NCBI RefSeq assembly: GCF_040436315.1
Contig: NZ_AP031572.1
Span: 1,550,001-1,614,000, forward strand
Direction: 5' to 3'
DNA from: Synechocystis sp. LKSZ1
Lineage (GTDB): Bacteria; Cyanobacteriota; Cyanobacteriia; Cyanobacteriales; Microcystaceae
Length of the DNA stretch: 64,000 bases
The stretch's first letter is position 1; the number at the start of each line of letters is the position of its first letter. Positions 6,087 through 11,767 of this stretch are shown here, one piece after another. The notes under the pieces were generated by a model. It ran no database searches. It was not told the DNA's origin and saw only the letters and a list, made by a program, of their open reading frames with translations. The position numbers were made by a program, and so were the translations under genes.

Positions 6087-6824
6087 TCAATCTTTTTTCG
6101 ACAAGGGAACGGTTTCAGGCTCCGTGGCGGCCGTTTCTGTCGCTTCTACCGTTGGGGGCCGGCGTTGGGAAAAGCCCCAGGTAAACACCAAGCCAATTAA
6201 CAGAAGCATTAACCATTCCGGCGGTACTAGGCTGGGATTGATCACCCGAATCAACAATCGCAGGCCCACCAGGCCCACGGTCAGAAAGCCCGCATCTTCC
6301 AAATGGGTAAAAATCTCTAGCCAACGGATAAATAACTCCGCTAAAAACCGCAGGGTAATCACACCAATGGTGCCGCCGGCCAGGATTAACCAAAGGTCGT
6401 CGGCAATGGCAATGGCTGTGGTCACGCTATCGAGGGAAAAGGCCAGATCCGTCACTGCAATGATGGGGATGGCCTGCCAAAGGGAGGTAAAGGGCAAGCT
6501 ACGGTGATGGGTTTCATCCTCTTCCGTTAGAAAATAATCTGCCACCAGCCAGAGGAGATACAGGGCCCCCAATAATTCAATTTGCCAAAAACGAACGACC
6601 CAAGTTGCCGCTAAAATCAGACTCATGCGGAGGACGTAGGCCACCAGCAGACCTAGGTTGAGGGCGTTTTTCTGTTGTTGCTTATCCGCCAATCCCTGAG
6701 CAATGGCCGCGAGGGCAATGGCATTGTCGGCGGATAGTACAGCTTCCAGCGCGATCAACACAATCAGAATGAGGGGCGTTTTGAGACTGAGGGCGAGGGA
6801 AGAGTCGAGTAACTGGTCTAACAT
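6087..6824 (-). CDS. TerC family integral membrane protein
   Basis: A 245-residue TerC-type membrane protein with about seven hydrophobic segments. The signature ALEAVLSADNAIALAAI lies in the first helix and a second acidic intramembrane motif is DLAFSLDSV. Family members export Mn2+ or Ca2+ or help membrane-protein insertion. The ATG at 6824 is chosen because family proteins begin just before the first helix; a TTG at 6857 would add 11 residues. It is convergent with the Fur-family gene (5-base gap), so a metal-homeostasis link is possible but only inferred. Confidence 0.85.
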   Translation of the reverse strand: MLDQLLDSSLALSLKTPLILIVLIALEAVLSADNAIALAAIAQGLADKQQQKNALNLGLLVAYVLRMSLILAATWVVRFWQIELLGALYLLWLVADYFLTEEDETHHRSLPFTSLWQAIPIIAVTDLAFSLDSVTTAIAIADDLWLILAGGTIGVITLRFLAELFIRWLEIFTHLEDAGFLTVGLVGLRLLIRVINPSLVPPEWLMLLLIGLVFTWGFSQRRPPTVEATETAATEPETVPLSKKD

Positions 6825-6944
6825 GAAGAATGGGTAAGATAGCCTGTCCAGCGGCAAAGACTGGATTACAGCAGAGTGGTACTTTCCATTATCGGGGAAG
6901 TCTGTGGATTTTGCCCCATACTATTCATTGTTCTATCAATCAAG

Positions 6945-8084
6945 ATGACTAAACGTGCTGTTGTCTTACTGTCCGGGGGCCTGGATTCGGCCACCTCAGC
7001 GGCCATCGCCCGCCAACAAGGCTATGAACTGATTGCCCTCTCCTTTAACTACGGCCAACGTCACCAACGGGAACTCCAGGCCGCCCTGGCCCTGGCCCAG
7101 CATTTGCAGATTACCCAGCACTACACCATCAACCTCGACTTGGCCCAATGGGGGGGCTCTTCCCTGACGGATACAAGCCAGGCCATTCCCACTAGCGGCG
7201 TTGATACTAGCGTGATTCCGTCTACCTACGTGCCGGGGCGAAATACCATTTTTATTGCCCTGGGCCTTTCTTTGGCCGAAGCCCAAGGGGCCGAAGCCAT
7301 TTTCCTGGGCATTAACGCCATCGACTATTCCGGTTATCCCGATTGTCGTCCCGACTATCTCCAGGCCTATCAGCACTTGGCGGCCCTCTCGTCTAAGGTT
7401 GGCATCGAGGGCCATCCCATCCAACTGATCGCGCCCCTAATCCAGGACAGTAAAGTCGATATCATCCAAAAAGCAGTGGCCCTGGGGGTTCCCATTGCCC
7501 AAACCTGGTCTTGTTATCAGGGAGACCTCCAGCCCTGCGGTCGCTGTGATGCTTGCCGAATACGTGACCAGGCTTTAATCGAAGTGGGTTACCCCGAATT
7601 GGCCAGTTCTAACCTTCCCAGGCTCTTTTTTGACTTTGAAGCGGAATTTGTGGATTCCCTGCGCTGCATCCCCATGGTCGTTCGCTACAAGCTCGATACC
7701 TGCGGCGTAAAGCTCAAACTCCAGCACTGGCATGGTTTTTCCCAAGACCAACGTCAACAATTGGTGACGGCCCCCTGCGGGACAGCCCTCGAGGTGGAGC
7801 AGTATCGTCAACAACTCCAGGCCTGGGTCGCGGCCCAGACGGGAACCCCGGCCAATACCCTGTCCATTGACCCTGCGCCCCCCTGGTTAGAGACGGAACA
7901 AATCCCCGCCACGGTGCTCCAACACATGCAGGAACGGCAACTACCTCTCCTTTCCACTACGGCCTGGGCCGACCTGAGTCCTCTGCAGCGTTTTGCCTTG
8001 ATCAAGCTCAGCCAACCGGGCCATGAAAACCGCAATTTTCTACCGGCCCTGCAAGAATTTGGCTTGGCAGGTCTTGAGGTCTAG
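6945..8084 (+). CDS. queC: Fusion of 7-cyano-7-deazaguanine synthase (QueC) and nitrate reductase-associated protein (NarM)
   Basis: A 379-residue protein in one open frame. Residues 1 to about 222 are QueC: the PP-loop SGGLDSAT near the N-terminus, [20 protein letters not shown], and the zinc cysteines in CGRCDAC. QueC makes preQ0, precursor of queuosine. From about residue 227 ([13 protein letters not shown]) to the end, the protein matches the conserved nitrate reductase-associated family (Nitr_red_assoc; cyanobacterial NarM), with [18 protein letters not shown] and a length of about 150 residues, close to the free-standing protein. There is almost no linker. The start is the ATG at 6945; an in-frame GTG at 6876 lacks support. 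In-frame GTG (7584) and TTG (7599) near the junction could give a separate NarM, but neither has a ribosome-binding site. See findings. Confidence 0.85.
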
Positions 8085-8088
8085 ACCC

Positions 8089-8119
8089 GGAGGGCCTACA
8101 TCAGGCCTCCTGGAGGCTG
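8089..8119. other. Two competing hairpins between queC-narM and gatA
   Basis: GGAGGGCCT can pair (one bulge) with AGGCCTCC after a 5-base loop; the same CCTCC can instead pair with the GGAGG immediately downstream. No T-run follows, so this is not a classical intrinsic terminator. It may be a weak attenuator or chance. Confidence 0.3.
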
Positions 8120-8156
8120 ATAGACTAGATAGCTGGAAACTGCGGGCTGATCTACT

Positions 8157-9605
8157 ATGACTTCTATTCGGACGCTTCATCAACAGTTAGTGACTAAGGA
8201 ACGCTCGGCGGTGGAAATCGCAACGGCCACCCTAGAGCGCATCCAGGCCTTGGAACCGAAACTCAAAAGTTTTCTCTGCGTTACCGCAGACCAGGCGCTG
8301 GCCACGGCCCAACAGGTTGATGCCAAGATTGCCCGCGGTGAAACCCTTGGCCTGTTGGAAGGTATTCCCATCGCCATTAAAGATAATCTCTGTACCCAGG
8401 GCGTGCCCACCACCTGCGCCTCTCGGATTTTAGAAGGGTTTATTCCGCCCTACGAATCGACCGTGACCCAGAAGCTCAAGGATGCCGGGGCCGTGATGGT
8501 GGGGAAAACCAATCTAGATGAATTTGCCATGGGCAGTTCGACGGAAAACTCCGGTTATCAAGTAACCGCCAACCCCTGGGATTTAAGCCGGGTGCCGGGG
8601 GGATCCTCCGGCGGATCCGCTGCCGCCGTGGCCGCTGATGAATGTGTCGTGGCCCTGGGGTCAGACACGGGGGGCTCGATTCGTCAGCCTGCATCTCTGT
8701 GTGGTGTGGTGGGTCTCAAGCCGACCTATGGCCTGGTGTCTCGTTTTGGTTTGGTGGCCTACGCTTCGTCTTTGGATCAAATTGGCCCCTTTGCCCGCAG
8801 CGTCGAAGATAGTGCTATTCTGCTTCAGGCCATTGCCGGTTACGATGCCAAGGATTCCACCAGCCTCAACGTCGAGATCCCCGACTATACCCAGTTCCTC
8901 AAACCGAGCCTCAAGGGCCTGAAGATTGGGGTGATTCGTGAAACCTTTGGCGAGGGCCTTGACTCGGTGGTGGCGGAAACCGTGCAAGCGGCCATCCAGC
9001 AATTACAGAAACTGGGGGCCGAGATCAAAGAAGTTTCCTGTCCCCGCTTTCGCTATGGCCTACCGGTTTATTACATCATTGCCCCCTCAGAAGCCTCGGC
9101 TAACCTAGCCCGCTACGATGCCGTTAAGTACGGTATCCGAGCCTCCAATCGCAACTTGATGGAAATGTACACCCAGACGCGGGCCCAGGGCTTTGGTCCT
9201 GAAGTCAAGCGGCGGATTATGTTAGGAACCTACGCTCTTTCCGCTGGTTACTACGATGCCTACTACCTCAAGGCCCAAAAGGTTCGTACCCTGATCAAAG
9301 AAGATTTTGACCAGGCTTTTTCCCAGGTGGATGTCCTTGTCTGCCCCACCGCCCCCACCACGGCCTTCCGCGCGGGGGAAAAAACCACCGACCCCTTGAG
9401 TATGTATCTGTCGGACTTGATGACCATTCCCGTCAATCTGGCGGGCCTGCCCTCCATGAGCCTCCCCTGTGGCTTTGATAGTCAGCATCTCCCCATTGGC
9501 CTGCAATTGATTGGCAACGTACTCCGAGAAGACCGACTCTTCCATGTCGGTTATGCCTACGAGCAGGCCACGACTTGGCACCAGCAGAAACCGCCCCTAG
9601 TTTAG
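8157..9605 (+). CDS. gatA: Glu-tRNA(Gln)/Asp-tRNA(Asn) amidotransferase subunit A
   Basis: A 482-residue amidase-signature enzyme that releases ammonia from glutamine so GatB can amidate mischarged tRNA. The Ser-cisSer-Lys triad is visible: lysine in AIKDNLCT (about residue 77), serines in [19 protein letters not shown] and [13 protein letters not shown]. The length is typical. The other Gat subunits are not in this window, which is usual for cyanobacteria where gat genes are dispersed. The ATG at 8157 begins a standard N-terminus (SIRTLHQQL). Confidence 0.95.
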
Positions 9606-11196: not shown

Positions 11197-11481
11197 CTAG
11201 CCCCCGGCTACTTCACTGAGTGCCCCTTGAATTACGTCATCACTGACACCGCGACGCTTTAGGCTTGCAACCAAAGCAGACACCGTATCGCCATCCAATC
11301 GCTCCAAATCAGCCCTTAACCCTTGGCCAACGTAAGCACGCACTAGAGGTTGATACCCAGAAAAACCCAGTAACGGCGCAACTCGTTTCAAATCCTCAAT
11401 GACATCTTCAGGCATACGAATGGTAATCGTGGTCATGGGACGGTTCCGATCCAACCGCTTTTTCAAGGCCTCAGTTTTCAT
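11197..11481 (-). CDS. BrnA-like antitoxin
   Basis: A 94-residue protein encoded directly after a BrnT-like toxin, overlapping it by 11 bases. The middle part (TTITIRMPEDVIEDLKRVAPLLGFSGY) reads as a ribbon-helix-helix or BrnA/CopG DNA-binding segment, and the tail is acidic or polar. The antitoxin presumably binds BrnT and represses the operon. The start at 11481 (MKTEALKKRL) is preferred over an upstream TTG/ATG frame that would run deep into brnT. The call rests mainly on gene context. Confidence 0.72.
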   Translation of the reverse strand: MKTEALKKRLDRNRPMTTITIRMPEDVIEDLKRVAPLLGFSGYQPLVRAYVGQGLRADLERLDGDTVSALVASLKRRGVSDDVIQGALSEVAGG

Positions 11482-11767
11482 AATATTCCCGCTCCTGGCG
11501 CGTTGCTTTACGGGCCGAAATAATCCGAATAGTGTCATTTTCGCGTTCAATAAAGACAACGTACAGCAGGTTCCAACGTCGATCTAAGCCAATAATGGCA
11601 TCTCGGGCTTCATCGTTGCGACTGGCATCAATGACCACCAGGAATGGGTCAAAGAAGGCTTCTGCCGCTTGCTGAAACGTAACACCATCGTAGTTTATCG
11701 GGTTAATCCTAGCTTTTTCATCGTTCCAGACGAAGGCAATACCATTGAGTGCGAAATACACATCCAT
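11471..11767 (-). CDS. brnT: BrnT family toxin (RelE-fold ribonuclease)
   Basis: A 98-residue protein with the BrnT pattern: FVWNDEKARINPINYDGVTF at the N-terminus, a central FFDP segment, LLYVVFIERENDTIRIISAR and the C-terminal RKATRQEREYYE. BrnT toxins cleave RNA and are neutralised by BrnA. It is the first gene of a two-gene operon. A sigma70-like promoter sits so close upstream that the transcript could be leaderless. Confidence 0.82.
   Translation of the reverse strand: MDVYFALNGIAFVWNDEKARINPINYDGVTFQQAAEAFFDPFLVVIDASRNDEARDAIIGLDRRWNLLYVVFIERENDTIRIISARKATRQEREYYEN

Follow-up and report, generated by a model that had tools for sequence, protein, structure and literature searches.

A rare queC-narM fusion gene pairs two known protein families in the Synechocystis sp. 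LKSZ1 lineage

The closest described systems are canonical QueC (7-cyano-7-deazaguanine synthase) and stand-alone NarM, the nitrate reductase-associated protein that is reportedly needed for active nitrate reductase, according to work on Synechococcus elongatus. For the canonical QueC cluster, PMC13329287 lists the motifs SGGxDS, YxQxHxxE, VPxRN and YPDC and a zinc motif, C(x)8CxxCxxC. In its main text, the terms "fused," "nitrate" and "cyanobacteri" are absent, and "fusion" occurs once, for GMP synthase with a GATase domain. In a published co-occurrence module, a nitrate reductase-associated protein stands together with genes for nitrate reductase and the Mo cofactor, and queuosine genes go unmentioned in the passages describing it (PMC5862535). 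Our own literature search returned no paper holding both narM and QueC, a statement that applies to that search.

Unlike canonical QueC, the QueC of Synechocystis sp. LKSZ1 carries NarM at its C-terminus. The gene lies in a stretch of 64,000 nucleotides (the window) within a single 3.67 Mb contig that is rated 100% complete. The features on which the following comparison draws are:

6090..6857, minus strand: divergent neighbour, which we take to be a TerC-family membrane protein gene; the TerC-queC pair also occurs in genome G009.
6945..8084, plus strand: queC-narM fusion gene, 379 aa plus stop, a single ORF with both families above curated cut-offs.
6945..7622, plus strand: QueC part, residues 1-226, with the QueC motifs, the four-Cys site and the tail ELASSNLPR.
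7584..7586, plus strand: GTG codon (Val214), with TTG at 7599-7601 a possible internal NarM start, as suggested by sequence and alignment.
7623..7625, plus strand: junction codon CTC (Leu227), at the site of the queC stop of genus mate G003 and of the narM start, from a codon comparison with four genus mates.
7626..8081, plus strand: NarM part, residues 228-379, covering PF09655 positions 1-144/144, above the TIGR02664 cut-off and keeping 59/61 conserved columns.
8157..9605, plus strand: downstream gene, presumably gatA-like.

The frame is open from ATG 6945 to TAG 8082-8084 and contains both families essentially end to end. The Pfam QueC profile (PF06508) matches residues 4-214 with 243.8 bits against a cut-off of 22, spanning profile positions 1-209/210, while Nitr_red_assoc (NarM, PF09655) matches residues 228-372 with 209.7 bits against 25 over the whole of its 144 positions. 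The corresponding NCBIfam models agree, with 230 bits for TIGR00364 (QueC; cut-off of 150.3) and 188.3 bits for TIGR02664 (NarM; cut-off of 110), and both matches lie far above chance. All of the canonical QueC motifs are present, namely SGGLDS (residue 10), YGQRHQRE (36), VPGRN (96), YPDC (131) and a four-Cys site at residues 190-204. The first spacing of the zinc motif is 7 both in the fusion and in aligned cyanobacterial relatives, versus 8 as written in PMC13329287. The QueC half keeps 111 of the 114 columns that are conserved at ≥90% in 50 unfused rows, and the NarM half keeps 59 of 61 such columns in 37 unfused rows, the two losses being the start Met and one Arg, which is now Gln. Thus, the description in an earlier note of a one-frame fusion joining a full-length QueC, zinc cysteines included, to a full-length nitrate reductase-associated domain is borne out by the profile coverage. 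In the 37 aligned relatives, NarM stands alone with its own start, whereas the fused NarM sits behind QueC without a start codon; being a stand-alone small protein with its own start is a feature that lies outside the profile definition of the family.

Within this genome, NarM matches nowhere but in the fusion, and no other locus gives a full-length QueC match. A further match to PF06508 (26.6 bits over 63 positions) probably belongs to another ATP-pyrophosphatase. A TGT gene is present. About 412 kb from the fusion lies an intact pair made up of the ferredoxin-nitrite reductase gene nirA, which scores above its cut-off, and a gene for a NarB-like molybdoenzyme; NarM and NarB thus occur in the same genome, as is expected of the family. 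The NarB-like ORF lies directly behind nirA and is 70% identical to the G003 protein adjoining narM. For this ORF, all of the 25 NCBIfam rows shown stay below their cut-offs, and the name NarB is therefore based on homology and genomic position. The two genes overlap by one base (TAATG; G000:C1:1141262-1144965, L147:5263-8966), and narM is absent there, unlike in G003. In the 14 kb around nirA-narB, there is no significant NarM match, the two hits of 27 and 29 aa being at chance level (E of 0.046 and 0.48). Since a second narM match is absent from the genome, there is no candidate for NarM function other than the fusion, and the fused copy must serve if the organism uses nitrate with NarM.

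Among relatives, the joined architecture was found in one genome only, in the near, family and order sets alike. In the near set, 49 of the 58 genomes have a NarM match, which is joined to QueC in LKSZ1 alone; the nearest separate queC and narM seen on a shared contig (G040) lie on opposite strands with about 8.6 kb between them. All four genus mates (G001-G004) carry the two genes as separate non-neighbours: the distance is about 211 kb in G003 and about 2.8 Mb on the contig in G002, and the G001 and G004 copies lie on separate contigs. NarM occurs in 40/50 genomes of the family set, where the largest open frame besides our own is 194 aa. From an even draw of 388 genomes of the order, 346 match the fusion at E ≤ 1e-60, the remaining 42 falling outside this fusion-span test. 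Among the matches listed (to about 5e-69), LKSZ1 is the only one spanning both halves, none of the others passes residue 264, and its own E-value of 5.9e-258 is followed by 3.2e-114 for the next best. For the genomes with NarM in the phylum set (155/386) and in the set of 388 (358/388), open frames come from among the matches listed; in the phylum set, our own frame is the longest of these (413 aa), and other long NarM frames are those of G371 (315 aa), within which the usual NarM start is found, and G403 (300 aa). We considered G403 as a further fusion and set it aside, as the part ahead of its NarM start looks by eye like a chance reading. In a contig search, none of 51 loci covers both halves, with our own or near records possibly left out, and no plasmid record covers 80% of the query. 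The earlier note had named a combination that would count against the fusion, namely its absence from every other genome together with a separate intact narM in this one; the first half is what we observe, while the second does not hold, as no second narM match exists.

The junction can be placed to the codon by comparison with G003. Residue 226 of the fusion is the counterpart of the final residue of stand-alone G003 QueC, residue 227 (CTC) occupies the place of both the G003 queC TGA stop and the ATG of NarM, whose second residue corresponds to residue 228. The direct run from QueC into NarM was thus described correctly, while "almost no linker" understates the case, as there is no linker at all. 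QueC is conserved into its variable tail (the G003 protein ends ELASAQGPR-stop), and because tail length differs among the four genus mates, the exact match of QueC ends is to G003 only. Both other reading frames contain stops across the junction. In the predicted structure of NarM, a helical core is preceded by start residues (227-239) with pLDDT under 50, which makes a flexible joint at this position plausible; as the model was built from a shallow alignment of 7 rows, the low pLDDT may also stem from that alignment. The PDB copy that we searched contains no sequence match to NarM. The first NarM residues are strongly conserved in relatives, with a possible role in binding NarB, and a bulky QueC placed ahead of them could therefore disturb them.

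The NarM half clusters with the four genus mates at supports of 92/86, and the QueC half does so at 82/41; neither half therefore looks imported, although the QueC support is weak. The ratio of NarM to QueC mean tree distance to outgroups is 1.39 for LKSZ1, inside the range of the genus mates at its upper end (1.42, 1.30, 1.24 and 1.28); the outgroups are hand-picked family members, and the comparison is not a formal test. The surroundings of narM vary within the genus: in G003, it starts 6-12 bp after narB, depending on the start codon; in G004, the gene has a 736-aa ORF upstream in the same orientation; and in G002, it is preceded by an unrelated ORF. The divergent TerC-queC pair is common to the window and G009, and it recurs nowhere else among 85 QueC-matching loci, some of which come from the same genome and most of which have flanks of 1.5-5 kb. 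From these few loci and this one shared neighbour pair, we infer that queC may have stayed in place and narM moved. Since the two genes are non-neighbours in the relatives compared, a rearrangement or deletion must either have preceded the fusion or have produced it in a single event. The simpler origin proposed earlier, a stop codon lost between two adjacent genes, is right in that the queC stop is gone, and it falls short in that the narM start is also gone and the relatives compared have the two genes apart.

No retrieved locus except our own combines a GatA match with a QueC or NarM match. The exact box GTA-N8-TAC, which we take to be NtcA-type, is absent from 6850-6945; one copy with one mismatch at 6879 was judged uninformative, such matches being common by chance. 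A promoter and terminator scan of 6800-8250 found nothing exceeding shuffles. Elsewhere in the window, two small overlapping ORFs at 11197-11767 (minus strand) look like a pair that we presume to be a BrnT/BrnA-type toxin-antitoxin.

Taken together, these observations make it likely that this is a real, lineage-specific fusion whose two domains work independently on one chain. By this account, narM would in this lineage have come to lie 3′ of queC, and the queC stop and narM start would have been lost such that QueC runs without a linker into NarM. The N-terminal half would convert CDG to preQ0, using ATP and ammonia, as a step towards queuosine, while the C-terminal half would help NarB maturation, as is reported for stand-alone NarM. 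The opening residues of NarM may provide a hinge, and the two activities would be uncoupled beyond their shared transcript, chain and QueC oligomer.

Among the alternatives, the one that survives best, while still unlikely, is that NarM is also or mainly produced separately, either by initiation within the ORF (at GTG 7584 or TTG 7599) or by a protease cut. The GTG codon gives Val214 at a position where 45/50 aligned QueC rows have Ala, with the TTG further along, and the low predicted confidence in the NarM start region fits such a product as well. However, the usual narM ATG has been replaced by CTC, and by eye, neither internal start has a strong ribosome site.

Less probable is a functional coupling in which queuosine precursor synthesis is tied to nitrate reductase maturation, either by regulation or through a scaffold for NarB. 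Fusions often join partners, and in this genome, neither queC nor narM has another full-length copy, both of which favour a link. Nevertheless, the fusion is seen in one genome only, queC and narM share no neighbourhood in the genus mates, and narB lies about 412 kb away. Furthermore, the published module places a nitrate reductase-associated protein with nitrate reductase and Mo-cofactor genes (PMC5862535), and QueC continues into a different sequence in another genus, g12. The earlier suggestions that the fusion ties deazaguanine synthesis to nitrogen status, or that it supplies a scaffold near nitrate reductase, both find no support, given its restriction to one genome, the distance to narB and the different QueC extension in g12. 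A slightly more doubtful variant is a bifunctional chain in which the QueC oligomer multiplies and positions NarM, with queuosine supply and NarB maturation held in fixed proportion; if true, it would connect queuosine synthesis physically with nitrate assimilation for the first time.

A further instance of an extended QueC comes from the g12 genome G022. Like the fusion, its QueC is extended in frame at the C-terminus, but unlike the fusion, the extension is not NarM and has no Pfam or NCBIfam match. The ORF (L149:864-3074, minus strand) encodes QueC plus about 500 more residues, for a total of 737 aa, and in G015, of the same genus, a similar layout (L150:708-2923, minus strand) is interrupted within QueC. 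An ORF that we presume to be QueE-like lies directly upstream of the extended QueC in both genomes. As g12 is a different genus, its extension is probably an independent event, and by analogy, it suggests that the QueC tail may be a permissive site for joins. In G009 (L151:1229-3292), about 1.4 kb of DNA with ORFs of its own, possibly a mobile element, interrupts QueC after about residue 187.

Least probable of all is an assembly or base-calling artefact joining two separate genes, which the restriction of the fusion to a single genome would allow, but which is at odds with the completeness of the single-contig genome, the conservation of both halves and the absence of a second full copy of queC or narM, and which, with the genes apart in genus mates, would need a false join to meet in frame exactly at the queC end and the second codon of narM.

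The queC-narM gene is a new pairing of two known families that is rare and found in one lineage, and the reading that we prefer, a real fusion with independently working domains, would make it probably a tolerated evolutionary accident with two working halves. As such, it provides a natural test of NarM function when NarM is tied to a larger partner: given that no other NarM was found in the genome, a strain growing on nitrate would demonstrate that NarM can do without a free N-terminus. More broadly, the fusion suggests that a lineage can join two conserved and apparently unrelated genes, neither of which has a second copy, without visible loss in either, and it is a caution against inferring function from every fusion.
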